Part shown: positions 5,819-26,125 of the stretch, piece by piece
How the letters are laid out: each line of letters begins with the position of its first letter
Position numbering within the stretch: the stretch's first letter is position 1
IMG/VR virus record: IMGVR_UViG_3300032240_000441
Coordinates: 1-33,272 of that record
Length of the DNA: 33,272 bases
Origin: a virus
Direction: 5' to 3' (one strand)
Notes under the pieces: generated by a model
The model's input: the letters and a program-made list of their open reading frames with translations, nothing else
What the model was told of the DNA's origin: nothing
Databases searched by the model: none
Translations under genes and position numbers: made by a program

Positions 5819-7492
5819 ATGGCATTTCAGCTTTCACCTGGCATTAACGTATCCGAAGTAGACCTTACTTCCGTTGTGCCTTCCGTTGCGACCTCAACAG
5901 GCGCATTTGCGGGAAAATTTGCCTGGGGTCCAGTCGACCAAGTAATCACAGTATCAGATGAGGTTCGTTTAATGAACCAATTTGGTGAACCAACTGATGA
6001 CAACTACGAATACTGGTTCTCAGCTGCAAACTTTCTTGCATATTCTAATAATCTTAAAGTAGTTCGTGCGGCAAATACTGCATCATCATTAAATGCAACT
6101 TCTGCTGGTGGCGGTGTTTTAATTAAAAACATAGACGACTATACTAATAATTTCTCTGGCGGTGCTAATACTTACGGCCGTTTTGCAGCAAAATATGCTG
6201 GTGACTTAGGCAACTCAATTCGTGTTGAAGTTGTTGACGCTAATACTTACACTGGTTGGACATACGCTGGTAGTTTTACCGATGCTCCAAGAACTTCTGC
6301 ATACGTTTCTGCTTTAGGCGGCGCAAACGATGAAGTACATATTGTAGTTGTTGATGCTGGCGCTAAATTTACTGGCGTTGCAAATACAGTTTTAGAAAAA
6401 TTTGCTTTTGTTTCTAAAGCTTCTGATGCTAAACTTCCTGACGGAACTTCAAATTATTATAAAGATGTTTTAAGACAACGGTCAAACTATGTTTATATGT
6501 TGTCTCATCCTGATTCAACCAATTGGGGCAGCGCTGCATCAGGCACATCTTTTACATTACAGGCTACAAGAACCGCAAGCCGACTAAGCAGTGGTGCTGT
6601 TGGTACAGTAACTTCTGGCGATATTCAAAGAGCATATGGTAAGTGTGCAAATCCGGACTCAATTGATATTTCATTAGTTGTTGCTGGTCCATCTGATGCA
6701 ATTACTTCCAATTATTTAATTGATAATATTGCTGGTGTGCGTAAAGACTGTGTAGTGTTTGTTTCTCCACTAAGAACAAACGTTGTTGACCAATCTGGTA
6801 ATGAAACAACAAACATTTTAACTTACCGCCAAACTGTTAATTCTTCTGACTATGCCGTTATGGATTCTGGTTGGAAATATCAATACGACAAGTACAATGA
6901 TGTATATCGTTGGGTTCCATTAAATGGTGACACAGCTGGTCTATGTGCTCGTACTGACCTAGAACGTGACCCATGGTTCTCACCTGCTGGTTCAAATCGT
7001 GGTCTAATTAAGAACCTTGTTAAATTAGCATGGAATCCTACTAAGGCTGACCGTGACTCTTTATATGTTAAAGGCGTTAATCCGGTTGTTACATTCCAAG
7101 GTGAAGGTACAATCTTGTTTGGTGATAAAACATTGTTAACTCGCCCAACAGCATTTGACCGTATCAATGTTCGTAGACTGTTTATTGTTTTAGAAAAGGC
7201 AATTGCTAAAGCTGCTCGTTCTTCAATCTTTGAATTCAACGACCAATTTACACGTGCTCAGTTTGTTAACTTAGTTGAACCTTTCTTACGAGATGTTCAA
7301 GGTCGCCGTGGTATTACCGACTTCCGTGTTGTTTGTGATGAAAGAAATAATACTGCTGAAGTTATTGACCGCAACGAGTTTATTGGTGATATTTACATCA
7401 AACCTGCTCGTTCTGTTAACTTTATCCAGTTGAACTTTGTTGCTGTACGTTCTGGCGTGACTTTCGATGAAATCGTTGGCCGTCAAGTATAA
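5819..7492 (+). CDS. 18: Tail sheath protein gp18
   Basis: The protein has 557 residues (T4 gp18: 659). The N-terminus (SPGINVSEVDLTSVVPSVAT, then GAFAGKFAWGPVDQ) and the C-terminal domain (DRINVRRLFIVLEKAIAKAA ... GDIYIKPARSVNFIQLNF) are characteristic of contractile tail sheaths. The sheath contracts to drive the tail tube through the envelope. The shorter length suggests a reduced surface-exposed middle domain. A strong SD (AAAGGAG) lies 6 nt before the ATG. Its stop codon overlaps an exact late promoter for gp19. Confidence 0.95.
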   Translation: MAFQLSPGINVSEVDLTSVVPSVATSTGAFAGKFAWGPVDQVITVSDEVRLMNQFGEPTDDNYEYWFSAANFLAYSNNLKVVRAANTASSLNATSAGGGVLIKNIDDYTNNFSGGANTYGRFAAKYAGDLGNSIRVEVVDANTYTGWTYAGSFTDAPRTSAYVSALGGANDEVHIVVVDAGAKFTGVANTVLEKFAFVSKASDAKLPDGTSNYYKDVLRQRSNYVYMLSHPDSTNWGSAASGTSFTLQATRTASRLSSGAVGTVTSGDIQRAYGKCANPDSIDISLVVAGPSDAITSNYLIDNIAGVRKDCVVFVSPLRTNVVDQSGNETTNILTYRQTVNSSDYAVMDSGWKYQYDKYNDVYRWVPLNGDTAGLCARTDLERDPWFSPAGSNRGLIKNLVKLAWNPTKADRDSLYVKGVNPVVTFQGEGTILFGDKTLLTRPTAFDRINVRRLFIVLEKAIAKAARSSIFEFNDQFTRAQFVNLVEPFLRDVQGRRGITDFRVVCDERNNTAEVIDRNEFIGDIYIKPARSVNFIQLNFVAVRSGVTFDEIVGRQV

Positions 7493-7514: not shown

Positions 7515-8060
7515 ATGGCTTTTAATGTAAATGAATTTAGATCCCAATTGGTTGGTGACGGCGCACGTCCTAACCTTTTCGAGGTTTCTATGCCTTTCCC
7601 TGCGTTCTCTTTACCAGAAAACGCACAGCAAAAACTTACATTCATGTGTAAGACTGCTCAACTACCAGGCGCAACACTCGGTGTTGTTCCTGTCCAATAC
7701 TTCGGTCGTGAATTGAAGTTTGTTGGTAACAGAACATTCCAAGACTGGACAATTACAGTTATTAACGATGAAGACTTCGTTATTCGTAACTCATTTGAAC
7801 GTTGGATGGCTGGTATCAATTCTCATGCACTAAATATTCGTAACCCAGCTGCTTTGAATCCTACAAGTTATACTGTTGACGGTTCCGTTACACAGTTTGC
7901 AAAAGGCGGCAAAGCATTGAAGAAGTATAAGTTTGTTGGTTTATTCCCAACAGATGTAACACCAATCGATGTAGATTGGGGTTCAAATGATACCATTGAG
8001 GAATTTACTGTTACTCTTTCCTACCAATGGTGGGAATCAGCAGACGCAGGTGTGGTTTAA
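7515..8060 (+). CDS. 19: Tail tube protein gp19
   Basis: The protein has 181 residues (T4 gp19: 163). Motifs typical of gp19 are the N-terminal FEVSMPFPAF, LPGATLGVVPVQYFGRELKF, FQDWTITVINDEDF and the C-terminal TVTLSYQWWE. It polymerises into hexameric rings that form the tail tube inside the sheath. The position directly after gp18 follows T4. A good SD (AGGAG) precedes the ATG, and a UUCG-loop terminator follows the stop. Confidence 0.93.
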   Translation: MAFNVNEFRSQLVGDGARPNLFEVSMPFPAFSLPENAQQKLTFMCKTAQLPGATLGVVPVQYFGRELKFVGNRTFQDWTITVINDEDFVIRNSFERWMAGINSHALNIRNPAALNPTSYTVDGSVTQFAKGGKALKKYKFVGLFPTDVTPIDVDWGSNDTIEEFTVTLSYQWWESADAGVV

Positions 8061-21479: not shown

Positions 21480-21658
21480 AATTTATAAGTGAATATTCGA
21501 GTGATAAATTAACAAAGACCGCAAAGGTTTATTATTGTGGTGAAAGAGATTTTACCGTGATTGTAAAGAGTGATACTGGCACATACTATAATGTGTCGTT
21601 TAATAATATACAAGATGCAGAAGACTATGCAGAAGATTGGGTGCTAAAAAATGAGTGA
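21476..21658 (+). CDS. Small unknown protein, 60 aa
   Basis: The protein has 60 residues with a beta-beta-helix look (KTAKVYYCGERDFTVIVKSD, YYNVSFNNIQDAEDYAEDWV). There is no motif I recognise, no membrane segment and a low net charge. It is real because it is coupled on both sides: ATGA overlap with gp46 and an 8-nt overlap with the deformylase gene. It marks the start of the accessory genes between 46 and 45. Confidence 0.6.
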   Translation: MKFISEYSSDKLTKTAKVYYCGERDFTVIVKSDTGTYYNVSFNNIQDAEDYAEDWVLKNE

Positions 21659-22220
21659 ATTTTTAACTATTAATACCGAAGACAATGTTATTCGAGAAAG
21701 GCGTGTTGACCCTCTGCCTTTATATGACGATAATCATTTCATGTTGAAACAGGTGATGCCAGAGTTTTCTGGTCCATTACCTAATCAATTAATGGATAAT
21801 TTGGTAGAAAGACTTAAAGTTACAATGAAATTGTACGGGGGTCTTGGGCTTGCGGCAAACCAATGTGGTGTGTCTGAACGAGTGTTTGTAATTGGTACCG
21901 ACCAGTTTCAGATTGCCTGTATTAATCCAAAAATTGTTGGCACATCAGACGTACAGGCAAAAGAGAATGAAGGTTGCCTCACTTTTCCTGGTTTATATTG
22001 TAAAATAGAAAGACCAAATTGGGTAGAGGTTGAATTCACTACACCTGACGGCGAATTAAAACAGATGAAATTGGATGGTGCTACTGCTCGTTGTTTTCAA
22101 CATGAGTTAGACCATTTAAACGGAATTAAATTTGTTGACAAGATTGGTCCTGTTGCATTACAGATGGCCAAAAAGAAACAACAAAAAATAATTAAGAAGA
22201 TTACTCGACTAAAGAAATAA
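21651..22220 (+). CDS. def: Peptide deformylase
   Basis: The protein has 189 residues. All three family motifs are intact: GLGLAANQ (64-71), EGCL (107-110) and HELDH (151-155). The metal ligands are Cys109, His151 and His155, and the catalytic Glu is Glu152. It removes the N-formyl group from new proteins. The C-terminus is Lys-rich (MAKKKQQKIIKKITRLKK), unlike a typical host enzyme tail. Phage deformylases are known from T4-like cyanophages, where they are thought to help maturation of host or phage proteins late in infection. It sits 1 nt before the DruA-like gene. Confidence 0.93.
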   Translation: MSEFLTINTEDNVIRERRVDPLPLYDDNHFMLKQVMPEFSGPLPNQLMDNLVERLKVTMKLYGGLGLAANQCGVSERVFVIGTDQFQIACINPKIVGTSDVQAKENEGCLTFPGLYCKIERPNWVEVEFTTPDGELKQMKLDGATARCFQHELDHLNGIKFVDKIGPVALQMAKKKQQKIIKKITRLKK

Positions 22221-22221
22221 T

Positions 22222-23502
22222 ATGGCATATAGTTTTGACAAAAAAGATGATGTAGAAACTCAATGGGCAAAATGGCAAGCAGCTACTCCTATTGAAGAAT
22301 TATCTTTTACAGAAGATGAATTACGTGAGAGAGTAATTAAAGAACTCACTTACGTATCACAGATGGATGTTAAAGAATATACTTTGTTCCAAAAATGGTG
22401 TGAAGTGCAAGATAGGTATCCAACGCTTCTTGTCAATGACTTGTGGGAAGGCGAGAAAAGAGTCCTTGAAGATGAAGGCCAACGCCGTGCTATTTCTGAA
22501 ATTAAAGCTAACTTTTGGATTCCAAAAGATGCTGATGATTATCTAAATCTTGAACCTGAACTTTTATACACATCAAAACAAGAAGACTTGCCAGAATTAT
22601 GGAATTGTATTCGTACATTTTCTTCTACTATGAAGAATAATTCCAATATTGGTCGTAATCTAAATTTTGTTGTTCGTGATAAGAATACTAAATCTTATCT
22701 TGGTGTTATCTGTATTTCATCCGACTTTCTTGACTTGACACCTCGTGACAACTATATTGGCTGGGACCGTGTTAAGAAAACTCAAGGCGGAATGATTAAT
22801 CATACTGCAATCGGTTCTACAATTGTTCCACTACAACCATTAGGATTTAATTATGTTGGCGGTAAATTGCTTGCATTGTTATGTTTAACTGACGTAGTGC
22901 AGAATAAATGGAAAGAATTGTATGGTGATGAACTTGTAGGCGTTACTACTACTTCTTTGTATGGTAAAACTAAAGCAGGTGGTCTATCTCAATATGATAA
23001 CTTAGATTTTTGGCAACCAATGGGTTTCACCTCAGGCTCAGTTTCATTTGAACCTTTGGCAGAAACTCGTTACATGATTCGCCAATGGTTAATGAAGAAT
23101 CATACCCGTAAATATTTTGAATGGTATATTGCAAAGAAACCATCAGGTCAACCACACAAACGTGACCACAAAAATCGTTCATTGTCTTTTGCATATTCTA
23201 AGATGACTGTGCCAAAGGAATTGATTCGTTCAGAACATGCTCGAGGAATTTACTTTAGTCCTTTATATGATAAGACTTCTGAATTTCTCCGTGGTGATGA
23301 CGATGGCAAAAACATGACTAAGTTGTTTGATAACTCGGTAGAAAACATAGTGAATGTATGGAAAACTAAACACGCAAAGCCACGCATCAAACAATTGGTT
23401 AAAAAAGGTCGTGTATCACAAGAGTCCTTATTTTATGATGACCTTTGTTTCTTATCTTGGGAACAGGCAAAAGAAAAGTATTTGTCTCAAGTAGGTCGAT
23501 GA
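22222..23502 (+). CDS. DruA/DUF4338-like protein
   Basis: The protein has 426 residues. Residues ~145-275 carry the features I associate with DUF4338 (Druantia DruA-like): LNFVVRDKNTKSYLGVICIS, RDNYIGWDR (~175-183), a downstream Asn/hydrophobic run (INHTAIGSTIVPLQPLGFNY), GGKLLALLCL, then W...YGDELVGVTTTSLYGKT and FWQPMGFTSGS. The ~100 N-terminal residues and the basic C-terminus (KKPSGQPHKRDHKNRSLSFA) are not assigned. DruA is the marker protein of Druantia defence systems, but its biochemical activity is not settled. DUF4338 proteins also occur in phages and mobile elements. No other Druantia gene is present. Family assignment is by motif memory. Confidence 0.55.
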   Translation: MAYSFDKKDDVETQWAKWQAATPIEELSFTEDELRERVIKELTYVSQMDVKEYTLFQKWCEVQDRYPTLLVNDLWEGEKRVLEDEGQRRAISEIKANFWIPKDADDYLNLEPELLYTSKQEDLPELWNCIRTFSSTMKNNSNIGRNLNFVVRDKNTKSYLGVICISSDFLDLTPRDNYIGWDRVKKTQGGMINHTAIGSTIVPLQPLGFNYVGGKLLALLCLTDVVQNKWKELYGDELVGVTTTSLYGKTKAGGLSQYDNLDFWQPMGFTSGSVSFEPLAETRYMIRQWLMKNHTRKYFEWYIAKKPSGQPHKRDHKNRSLSFAYSKMTVPKELIRSEHARGIYFSPLYDKTSEFLRGDDDGKNMTKLFDNSVENIVNVWKTKHAKPRIKQLVKKGRVSQESLFYDDLCFLSWEQAKEKYLSQVGR

Positions 23503-23534
23503 TTGCCACAATAAGTGGATTTTCTGTGTATAAT
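23503..23534 (+). promoter_or_regulatory. Promoter of the TTGCCRCA-N18-TATAAT type before the tRNA-like gene
   Basis: TTGCCACA at 23503-23510 lies exactly 18 nt before a perfect TATAAT at 23529-23534. The same arrangement occurs at 27448 and 32549. Transcription would start ~12 nt before the tRNA-like gene. The upstream box is not a normal TTGACA at normal spacing. Confidence 0.65.
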
Positions 23535-23552
23535 CCACCTATATAAAGATAT

Positions 23553-23619
23553 GCGGTTGTTTTAGAACAGTTTAGGTGTCCAACTTGAACGGTAGGTGCG
23601 AATCCTACGAACCGCTCCA
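23553..23619 (+). tRNA. Short tRNA-like gene ending in CCA, D-arm reduced or absent
   Basis: GCGGTT (23553-23558) pairs with AACCGC (23610-23615), followed by discriminator T and encoded CCA (23617-23619). A perfect T-stem, GTAGG/CCTAC, closes a 7-nt loop TGCGAAT that resembles the T-loop TTCRANY but has G at position 55. The whole gene is 67 nt, about 9 nt short of a standard tRNA, and the region 23560-23591 cannot hold a normal D-arm plus anticodon arm. One fold (AGTT with AACT) presents GTG (His) in the anticodon position, but without U33. It has its own promoter and terminator, so it is expressed, either as a degenerate tRNA or as a tRNA mimic. Confidence 0.5.
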
Positions 23620-23625
23620 TATTTT

Positions 23626-23656
23626 AAGAGTGTTGCGTAAAAACAACACTCTTTTT
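23626..23656 (+). terminator. Strong intrinsic terminator after the tRNA-like gene
   Basis: AAGAGTGTTG (23626-23635) pairs perfectly with CAACACTCTT (23644-23653), followed by TTT. The 8-nt loop is CGTAAAAA. It defines the tRNA-like gene as a short separate transcript of about 110 nt. Confidence 0.9.
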
Positions 23657-23684: not shown

Positions 23685-23712
23685 TTGACAATTCGGCCAA
23701 TTCATGTATAAT
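23685..23712 (+). promoter_or_regulatory. Sigma70-type promoter before the CobT-like gene
   Basis: TTGACA (23685-23690), a 16-nt spacer and a perfect TATAAT (23707-23712). Transcription would start near 23719, inside the TTATAAATTG leader element shared with the CobS-like gene. Confidence 0.85.
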
Positions 23713-23743: not shown

Positions 23744-26125
23744 ATGACGTTTACAGTAGAACAAAAATCACAACTTGCTAGATTAATGGCAACCGAAAAT
23801 CTACGTGTTGAACACCAAAAAATCAGTACTGCTAAATTTGATCCAAAGAATCGTATCTTATATTTGCCAATTTGGCAAGATATGACAGGTATTTTATATG
23901 ACCTACTTTGCGGTCATGAAGTTGGCCATGCTCTTTATACTCCTGCTGAAGGCTGGCATGATGTTGCATCCGACAAATCTAAACCAAAAGCATATAAACA
24001 CTTTTTGAATGTTGTTGAAGATGCTCGAATTGAGAAAAAAGTTAAACGCCGTTATCCTGGCCTAAAGACTTCTTTTCAAAATGCTTACGCTGAATTAAAT
24101 GCTCGTGATTTTTTTGGTATTAAAAATCGTGATGTAAATGGAATGCCATTTATTGACCGATTGAATCTTTATACAAAATCTCAATATACTGCTCATTATA
24201 TAAATTTCACCGCTAAAGAACAATTGTTGGTTAAAAAGGTTGAAAGCCTTGAAACATGGGATGAAGTTCTTGCAGTAACATCCGAAGTTTATGAATACTC
24301 TAAGGATGAACAGTATGAAATGAACATGCACGATTTTGAAGAATTCGAATCGGAGTATGGTGAAGGTGATGATAGCGATTTTGATGACTATGACTATGAT
24401 TCAGAATCAAATGAGAATGAAGAATCCAAAGATTCTGATAGCAAATCAACCAGCGGCAAAAACGAAGAGGATGCTGATGGTAAAGGTGATGAAGAAGATT
24501 CGGATACCGAAACCAAAGGCAACGCCAAAGGTGATGATGGTGAAAATGAAGGTGAAGATGAAGGAATAAAAACTCAACATCACAAAGATTCTCAGCCTGC
24601 TACAAAAGACATGTTTGTACCACAATGCCGAACCGATGAAGAATTCCGTAATAAAGAAGATTCTTTACTCGATGAAAAATGCAAGCCTTATGTTTATGTA
24701 AATATTCCAAAACCAATTTTTGCTAATATTATTACTCCTGCTAAACGTGTTCATGAACAATTAGTTGAATACTATTTAAAAGATAGAGAAGAAGGATATA
24801 AACCTCGTGTTTCTTCTGAAACGGCCAAAAAGTGGGTTACTGATTTTAAAAATCGTAATGAGCGATATGTTGGTTTATTAGCCAAAGAATTTGAAATGCG
24901 TAAGGCTGCTAAGGCATTCAGTAAGTCTAAACTGTCCGATACTGGTGATATTGATATTTCTAAATTGGCCTCTTATAAGTTTGATGACAACATTTTCCGC
25001 AAAGTTATGATGACACCAAAAGGTAAGAATCACGGTTTGATTTTGTTGCTTGATAAATCAGGTTCTATGTCTAACAACATGCCTGGTTCTATTGAACAAA
25101 TTTTAATTTTGGCAATGTTCTGCCGTAAAGTGAATATCCCATTTATCGTTTATGGCTTCGGAGATTCTCTTGAAGCTAATTCTGCTGACCGTGGATTGAA
25201 TTATTATGATTACAATACTAAAGATTGTTTTGAAGGCGCACCAGGCGAATTAGCATTAGAACCAGTTTTCTTGCGAGAGTATATCAATAGCAAGATGAGT
25301 AATTCAGAATTTTCTGCCGCTGTGCGTAATATGGTTATTTTGAAAAAAGGTTTTGAAGGCGGCCGCTGGGGTTATCGTGGTATGTCCAGACCTGAATGTG
25401 AACATTTGAGTAATACTCCTTTGACACAAGCTGTATTTGCTTGTGGCCACATTATGAAAGCCTTTCGTCAGAAATACAATTTGGATATGTCCAGTTTAGT
25501 TATTGTACATGATGGTGATTCTGATTGGTGCCATTATATGTGGCAATTACAAGAAGGTCGTGAAACAACTAATGGTCCTATTGTCATGCAAAAACGCCGT
25601 GTTGGTTTCGATGCAAAAAGAACAAATGTAATTGTACGTGACCCAGCTATCAAATTCGAAAAACGTTTGCAAGATGATTCTCGGGATGCTATGTTGATTG
25701 CTTCGCTTGATTGGTTCCGTAAAATGACCAATTCAAATGTGTTTGGTTTCTTTTTGACAGCAACAAGCAAATCATATATCAATGCTGCCATTTATAATCG
25801 TTATGTCTTTGAAGACGGCACCGATTTTGAAAAGATGAATATGGATACTCAGAAGCCTGGCGGCAACCGTGCGGCTTATGAAATGAAACGTGAAATAACT
25901 TTTAAAAAATTCAAAAGTGAAAAGTATCTTGCTTCTAAGACACCTGGTTATACCGAGTTTTATCTTGTTCTTGGTGGCGAAGATATGAATGTTGGCAATG
26001 AAGATTTGGAAATTGATGGCAAATTTACTGCCAGTAAATTGAAAAATGCTTTTATGAAAATGAACAAAAAGAAATCTCTGAACCGTGTTCTAGTTTCCCG
26101 TTTCATACAGGGCATTGCTGCCTAA
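23744..26125 (+). CDS. CobT-like protein: HExxH domain, acidic linker and VWA domain
   Basis: The protein has 793 residues. The N-terminal domain has HEVGH (58-62) and NVVEDARIE (89-97), a pairing known from CobT/NorD-type and related metallopeptidase-like domains of MoxR-associated VWA proteins. Residues ~200-285 are a Glu/Asp/Gly/Lys low-complexity linker. A VWA domain starts near 430 with the MIDAS motif DKSGSMS. The C-terminal ~100 residues are basic. CobT/CobS form the cobaltochelatase AAA+/VWA complex in bacteria, but here no CobN or other B12 gene is present, so a different ATP-driven remodelling or chelatase function is likely. The SD is AAAGG. Its partner follows from a separate, matching promoter. 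Confidence 0.85.
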   Translation: MTFTVEQKSQLARLMATENLRVEHQKISTAKFDPKNRILYLPIWQDMTGILYDLLCGHEVGHALYTPAEGWHDVASDKSKPKAYKHFLNVVEDARIEKKVKRRYPGLKTSFQNAYAELNARDFFGIKNRDVNGMPFIDRLNLYTKSQYTAHYINFTAKEQLLVKKVESLETWDEVLAVTSEVYEYSKDEQYEMNMHDFEEFESEYGEGDDSDFDDYDYDSESNENEESKDSDSKSTSGKNEEDADGKGDEEDSDTETKGNAKGDDGENEGEDEGIKTQHHKDSQPATKDMFVPQCRTDEEFRNKEDSLLDEKCKPYVYVNIPKPIFANIITPAKRVHEQLVEYYLKDREEGYKPRVSSETAKKWVTDFKNRNERYVGLLAKEFEMRKAAKAFSKSKLSDTGDIDISKLASYKFDDNIFRKVMMTPKGKNHGLILLLDKSGSMSNNMPGSIEQILILAMFCRKVNIPFIVYGFGDSLEANSADRGLNYYDYNTKDCFEGAPGELALEPVFLREYINSKMSNSEFSAAVRNMVILKKGFEGGRWGYRGMSRPECEHLSNTPLTQAVFACGHIMKAFRQKYNLDMSSLVIVHDGDSDWCHYMWQLQEGRETTNGPIVMQKRRVGFDAKRTNVIVRDPAIKFEKRLQDDSRDAMLIASLDWFRKMTNSNVFGFFLTATSKSYINAAIYNRYVFEDGTDFEKMNMDTQKPGGNRAAYEMKREITFKKFKSEKYLASKTPGYTEFYLVLGGEDMNVGNEDLEIDGKFTASKLKNAFMKMNKKKSLNRVLVSRFIQGIAA

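Follow-up and report, generated by a model that had tools for sequence, protein, structure and literature searches.

A DruA-family gene with a predicted GNAT-like fold is linked to a tRNA-Gly-like RNA in T4-like phages

DruA marks a defense system that is searched for in many genomes; what, then, does a relative of this protein do in a lytic-type phage, close to the core replication genes? We examined this question in a 33,272-nt stretch of DNA from a virus of aquatic bacteria (the window), in which the gene concerned, an intact ORF labeled X here, has its ATG directly 3' of the stop codon of a peptide deformylase gene (Table 1). The likeness of X to DruA/DUF4338, proposed in the initial annotation, is borne out by profile searches: Pfam PF14236 (DruA) matches residues 112-358 with an E-value of 3.8e-18 and a score of 66.1 bits, well over the curated cut-off of 27, the PADLOC DruA1 profile matches at 1.7e-16, and PHROG 19197, a family of unknown function, at 2.6e-30. 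DruA was the sole family matched in a Pfam search at E-values up to 10, the DruA profile is also matched by all 47 relatives of X tested, and a sequence search of the PDB with X recovered no relative. The dN/dS of X against close relatives is 0.05-0.13, pointing to purifying selection.

Examination of the window also upholds the description of its source as a lytic-type phage with X in replication surroundings. It encodes the portal, sheath, terminase and major head protein of a T4-like phage along with a UvsW-like helicase, gp46/47, a late sigma factor, the sliding clamp and the clamp loader, and X lies amid replication and recombination genes in the order gp47, gp46, deformylase, X, peptidase, CobS-like ATPase and, further down, gp45-gp44-gp62-regA-hsp20-gp43. 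The neighbors named at the outset, peptide deformylase and replication genes, prove correct by Pfam and PHROG. A survey of T4-like phages recovered orthologs of X at several constant replication-region loci, namely locus A (gp46-def-X-peptidase; the window, Mosig and HTVC008M), locus B (gp44-X-gp62) and locus C (gp43-X-uvsX). Among mutually related contigs picked by the sequence of X, regardless of its position, locus A has gp46 at most 3 kb upstream of X in 66/66 contigs, the deformylase upstream in 65/66 and the peptidase downstream in 56/56, while locus B has gp44 upstream in 42/43 and gp62 with regA downstream in 17/18. At locus C, X sits between gp43 and a YunG-like gene, which is followed by uvsX. 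HTVC008M combines one locus-A copy with a second copy of locus-B type. The N- and C-terminal parts of X, earlier considered unusual, are both conserved across the locus-A family and in the homologs from bacterial elements.

X is carried by 31 of 50,697 phage records, all of them cyanophages, pelagiphages or marine viruses, as against over 430 records with a gp44 relative under the names Synechococcus phage or cyanophage, which marks X as an accessory gene. Homologs also occur near tyrosine integrases in Rhizobiales, Pelagibacteraceae and another bacterial bin (L382, L385, L388), with a serine recombinase in the stretch too, and X thus travels on integrative elements as well. The YunG-like gene (PF24585, E 5e-5 to 2e-7, 140-180 aa) adjoins X in the locus-C phages and in two bacterial elements, and is possibly a third partner of X. 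Two contigs binned as Thermoplasmata, yet consisting of T4-like phage DNA, hold two tandem DruA-like genes near a gp43 polymerase (L383:2280-4708; L384:969-3478). Within the family of a Pelagibacteraceae bin, PF14236 is present in 3/197 genomes, and two genomes (L405, L406) encode DruA-family ORFs that are longer, at 661 and 703 aa.

Structure prediction with AlphaFold was based on separate alignments, one led by the window protein (model A2, pLDDT 86.6) and one led by a locus-B protein (model A4, pLDDT 86.3), which overlap in part in that A2 includes locus-B rows. Nearly all of the best PDB matches of A2 and A4 are GNAT-superfamily acetyltransferases, with moderate scores (best E 0.016 and 0.008, respectively), and at such E-values the predicted fold of X can be said to resemble that of GNAT acyltransferases. 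DUF4338 has also been placed in GNAT by a published analysis (PMC10853773). A QPLGFN loop lies between strand 195-203 and helix 209-220 of the A2 model; this QPxGxN pattern resembles the acyl-CoA motif A (QxxGxG/A), with N in place of G/A at the last position, and Q205, P206, G208, N210 and the ensuing GGKLL are invariant in 47 sequences. In fold searches, the X model is also matched by giant-virus proteins from Faunusvirus, Yasminevirus and Dasosvirus (E 4e-18 to 2e-9).

The initial annotation held that X stands alone. This view has to be abandoned, as X is kept in T4-like phages at several replication-region loci and is tightly linked to a tRNA-Gly-like RNA, which had gone unmentioned and which in the window begins 50 nt 3' of X. 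At minimum energy (-21.2 kcal/mol, z -2.2) this RNA folds into a cloverleaf whose acceptor, D and T arms measure 6, 3 and 5 bp, respectively, and whose anticodon arm presents UCC. Bacterial GlyRS reads G1:C72, C2:G71, U73, C35 and C36 (PMC9976931), all of which are kept together with the CCA end; the normal D arm with GG and the T loop TTCRA are absent, their places being taken by the 3-bp D arm and a UGCGAAU loop. ARAGORN and Rfam left the element unreported, and Rfam returned chance snoRNA-type and frameshift-type matches only for the gap after X. Given that scans with a loose tRNA-like pattern were too noisy, a covariance model and a discriminator-base control were used in their place. When a covariance model of the sister elements, with the window left out, was run on 0.76 Mb, it recovered the window element (21.9 bits, E 0.026), a match that is weak by itself and strong given its position. 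Two close relatives of the window also have the element, in versions whose acceptor stem is imperfect.

Table 1. Features of the X/RNA locus in the window, and YunG-like neighbors of X on other contigs
Feature	Position	Strand	Basis or remarks
Peptide deformylase gene, adjoins X upstream	21651..22220	+	Pfam 2e-36
Gene X, DruA-family protein with predicted GNAT-like fold	22222..23502	+	426 aa; Pfam, AlphaFold, dN/dS
GNAT acyl-CoA-like loop QxxGxG/A (last position N), then GGKLL; QPLGFNYVGGKLL	22834..22872	+	Codons 205-217 of X
TATAAT, possible -10 box upstream of the RNA	23529..23534	+	Sequence; box enriched upstream of 50 distinct elements
tRNA-Gly-like RNA	23553..23619	+	Acceptor GCGGTT/AACCGC, UCCA end, anticodon UCC, 3-bp D arm, T loop UGCGAAU
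T-tailed hairpin resembling a terminator, immediately 3' of the RNA	23626..23653	+	
Promoter-like TTGACA-16-TATAAT of the next gene (peptidase)	23685..23712	+	
Peptidase-type T4-like core gene, downstream flank of the module	23744..26125	+	PHROG 459, 3.4e-174
YunG-like neighbor of X	L390:6797-7225		PF24585
YunG-like neighbor of X	L388:6819-7322		PF24585
YunG-like neighbor of X	L382:5605-6144	-	PF24585

Comparison across relatives indicates that the RNA is conserved as a structure. Twenty-six 63-nt elements align without gaps, and the cloverleaf pairs are formed in 91.9% of the cells of this alignment as against 82.5% when shuffled and 35-52% when slid; ten of these pairs have changed on both sides. 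In the window-type class (8 sequences), there are 13 predicted pairs, of which 6 show double changes. G1:C72, C2:G71 and U73 occur in each of the 50 distinct elements, the U at the discriminator being found at a position that the search had left free. A TATAAT-like box lies upstream of 38 of these 50 elements, with 21 perfect copies, whereas control positions upstream gave counts of 0-13 without a single perfect copy; in the window, a promoter scan scored no -35 partner for it. Terminators after the other elements are not clearly enriched (13/50 against 18/150 in the control). The promoter-like site of the peptidase gene shows that the RNA closes a separate unit. We also considered the possibility that the RNA is a tRNA fragment left by integration, and rejected it for these phages in light of the whole cloverleaf, the compensatory changes, the frequent presence of its own -10 box, the lack of an adjoining integrase and the recurrence of similar D- and T-loop changes in distant lineages.

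Where loci were picked by the sequence of X, a comparable element occurs in 75 of the 112 distinct gaps after X. Conversely, a scan of IMG/VR for the RNA alone, blind to X, returned 113 elements, with X upstream in 110 and the remaining three at contig ends with less than 100 nt of upstream sequence; as this pattern is clade-specific, inherited gene order contributes to the 110/113, and as the loci are mutually related, linkage counts of this kind are not independent events. In place of the element, contig L183 has an ordinary tRNA-Gly(UCC) after X, and in some phages X is followed by a tandem pair of tRNA-Gly-like elements that differ from each other (L031:1361-1500; L203:5273-5412). The pelagiphage branch has no element directly after X, the RNA lying 4-6.5 kb away. 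The sole tRNA that Rfam and ARAGORN detect in the 147 kb of HTVC008M is a tRNA-Gly(ACC) on the same strand as X, 3.9 kb downstream of it. This tRNA species has been called universally missing (PMC8007984), and its anticodon is also seen in several locus-C elements. In Mosig, ARAGORN finds Pro, Arg and Leu tRNAs only, but some 6.5 kb downstream of X, at 7779-7852, there is a degenerate sequence resembling tRNA-Gly. The hypothetical CDS Mosig_000011 (L673:1775-1870, that is, 7774-7869 of the Mosig record) overlaps this sequence and is hence probably not a protein gene.

A comparable linkage is seen in a separate, distant lineage of X, that of locus C, where, with X of L390 as the query, 21 of the 22 ARAGORN tRNAs within the fetched flanks of X are tRNA-Gly. 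Sixteen of these adjoin X, 12 of them at 11-17 nt before and 4 at 70-79 nt after the gene. Among 64 distinct locus-C contigs, 25 have a GC...GC-N-CCA element within 1.5 kb of X if T is taken as N; with A, C or G as N, or in antisense, the count is zero. The matching count at locus A, 99/141, is biased, in that it includes contigs found through the element itself. At locus B, an adjacent element was found in 0 of 188 distinct loci; the tRNA-Gly genes in ordinary arrays, present in 7 of the 8 gp44-X-gp62-type genomes checked, were given no weight because such tRNAs are common in cyanophages.

Besides the tRNA-Gly(ACC) of HTVC008M, other observations bear on whether the RNA serves in decoding. 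The T loops are non-canonical in 49/50 adjacent elements of locus A, 10/17 of locus C and 3/3 of the pelagiphages, as against 1/5 ordinary tRNAs. Further, the source genomes of contigs L040 and L171 encode an ordinary tRNA-Gly in a tRNA array in addition to the X-linked element, which indicates that the latter is not needed as a decoding tRNA. The 214-kb phage genome behind L171 also has tRNA genes with the stop-codon anticodons CTA and TTA (L585:1288-1362, 6433-6506), possibly for stop-codon suppression. A precedent is found in the non-proteogenic staphylococcal tRNA-Gly of the cell-wall bridge, which is charged, has GG18-19 replaced and the T region altered, and is weak for EF-Tu (PMC4052509, PMC8007984). 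In light of this precedent and the GNAT-like fold predicted for the partner, we propose that X takes glycine from the RNA.

Under this proposal, X and the RNA would form a single module, in which X would be a DruA-family acyl- or aminoacyltransferase of GNAT fold with glycyl-tRNA as its substrate. The host glycyl-tRNA synthetase would charge the RNA, which, by keeping the glycine identity elements and having lost the elbow features of the D and T loops, would be diverted from translation. X would then most likely take the glycyl group and pass it to a target near the replication machinery, and a dedicated donor of this kind would spare the glycyl-tRNA pool used in translation. That X and the RNA act together we regard as probable, and they probably do so in a manner not yet described; for the part of the RNA as glycine donor the considerations seem to us evenly balanced. 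The same even judgment applies to the explanation as a whole, the likeliest of those considered, namely that glycyl-tRNA is what X acts on and that a dedicated tRNA-Gly without a decoding function takes part, probably as the donor. As to the target, the location among replication genes, the presence of DruA in an anti-phage system that includes a large helicase, and phage Mu Mom suggest a base of the phage DNA, which is our guess and a doubtful one. That lytic T4-like phages modify their DNA in the course of replication by means of a DruA-family GNAT, with the glycine supplied by a dedicated tRNA-Gly unfit for translation, is, taken as a complete chain, rather unlikely. Several features count against the explanation as a whole: X has no match to FemABX or any other aminoacyl-tRNA transferase family in Pfam, the fold matches are moderate (best E 0.008-0.016), the loci counted are related, the pelagiphage RNA lies at a distance from X, the locus-B phages, lacking an adjacent RNA, would have to use a host or array tRNA-Gly, and the acyl-CoA-like loop would be superfluous in a pure aminoacyl-tRNA transferase.

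The conservation of this acyl-CoA-type loop favors instead a serious, if less than likely, alternative in which X would act as the GNAT toxins TacT and AtaT2 do, acetylating the glycyl moiety of Gly-tRNA to lower translation during takeover. The RNA would be a decoy or RNA antidote, which binds X or is modified by it and so protects the remaining tRNA-Gly. TacT, AtaT2 and GmvT are among the fold matches of the X model, most GNAT toxins tested prefer Gly-tRNA (PMC9177977), and the U73 and G71 read by TacT (PMC9976931) are kept in every element. However, these toxins are less than half as large as X, Pfam detects no DUF1778 antitoxin among the ORFs neighboring X, and X is constant among the replication genes of lytic phages, which need translation; if, moreover, it hit the host only, the phage would not need to keep a decoy.

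It is rather improbable that X is a CoA-dependent, Mom-like modifier of DNA bases with the RNA merely as a neighbor, since no Mom-family match was found for X and the glycine-only tRNA linkage recurs in separate lineages, even though Mom has been described as an adenine-modifying GNAT (PMC7824862), X has a predicted GNAT-like fold and a position among replication genes, and one cyanophage copy of X is annotated as methylcarbamoylase mom. In direct comparisons, X has no match to the Mom family (PF25680) in Pfam, and an hhalign comparison with seven Mom sequences extends over no more than 22 columns. Of the roles considered initially, DNA modification may still apply, as the predicted fold is GNAT-like, which is also reported for phage Mu Mom; by sequence, however, X is no member of the Mom family. 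We consider it very improbable that the RNA serves to draw off anti-phage enzymes of the host that hit tRNA-Gly (the toxSAS FaRel2, GNAT toxins), with X as a separate or supporting counter-defense factor: FaRel2 reads G1-C72, C2-G71, G4-C69 and the fifth acceptor pair (PMC11559606), the first two of which are found in all elements, but such a decoy leaves the GNAT nature of X and the persistence of the RNA with X unexplained. Least credible of all is that X represents Druantia, as a remnant or in stand-alone form, and serves in superinfection exclusion, as its family match to DruA (Pfam, PADLOC) is offset by the lack of DruB-E in the window, where the largest ORF has 793 aa, by an identity of only about 21% to true DruA across a 100/100 branch, and by its constant replication-region position. 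The view of X as a signal of Druantia defense is accordingly not supported, and superinfection exclusion and counter-defense, both previously suggested, have no evidence in their favor here.

The preferred reading, with glycyl-tRNA as the substrate of X, would have consequences beyond this locus. The recurrent link of phage DruA relatives with a non-decoding tRNA-Gly points to glycyl-tRNA as a substrate and, if the reading is correct, it would offer a candidate substrate for DruA in Druantia, a protein for which we found no activity reported. Phages would then maintain a reduced tRNA whose use lies outside translation, encoded by small genes that tRNA finders miss. Were DNA the target, there would also be an aminoacyl-tRNA-dependent DNA modification, which could suggest a glycine donor for Mom-type bases. 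Gene X itself is not new, given the DUF4338 annotation of the Mosig gene and the DruA-like proteins reported in six Synechococcus phages (PMC12774648), and the novelty lies in the module. The proteins of that report are X homologs at the gp44-X-gp62 locus, and its account, in the portion available to us, is without a locus analysis or a tRNA link. A literature search with subscription journals mostly outside its range returned no report of a tRNA link of X, of tRNA-dependent DNA modification or of phage tRNA-Gly mimics. As far as we found, therefore, no known kind of system pairs a DruA-family GNAT with a non-decoding tRNA-Gly.

It does, however, share features with several known ones. In Druantia type I, DruA is flanked by DruB, DruC, DruD and the large DruE helicase, whereas X is without DruB-E: no Dru match was found among ten neighbors scanned against PADLOC in the window, nor were Druantia partners found around the other phage copies of X examined. 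A maximum-likelihood tree sets apart Druantia DruA, locus A and loci B+C by 100/100 branches. Druantia DruA belongs to the same Pfam family as X and shares with it P206, the GGKL motif, T243, S245, G248 and R388, but has lost the Q and G of the loop, which X keeps as QxxGxN, and two true Druantia loci have no tRNA, in contrast to the linkage of X with a tRNA-Gly-like RNA. In phage Mu, Mom has been described as a GNAT with adenine-acylating activity (PMC7824862), and the predicted fold of X points to the same superfamily. The staphylococcal Fem system likewise includes a tRNA-Gly, altered in its D and T regions, which is charged and serves a Fem transferase (PMC4052509, PMC8007984). Reduction has gone much further in the phage RNA, however, X matches no Fem family in Pfam, and the peptidoglycan on which Fem transferases act is, as far as known, not the target of X. 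The GNAT toxins TacT, AtaT2 and GmvT have the fold that is predicted for X and read their Gly-tRNA substrate through the acceptor stem (PMC9177977, PMC9976931). They are smaller proteins paired with a DUF1778 antitoxin, whereas X is accompanied by a dedicated RNA at a conserved locus in the replication region.
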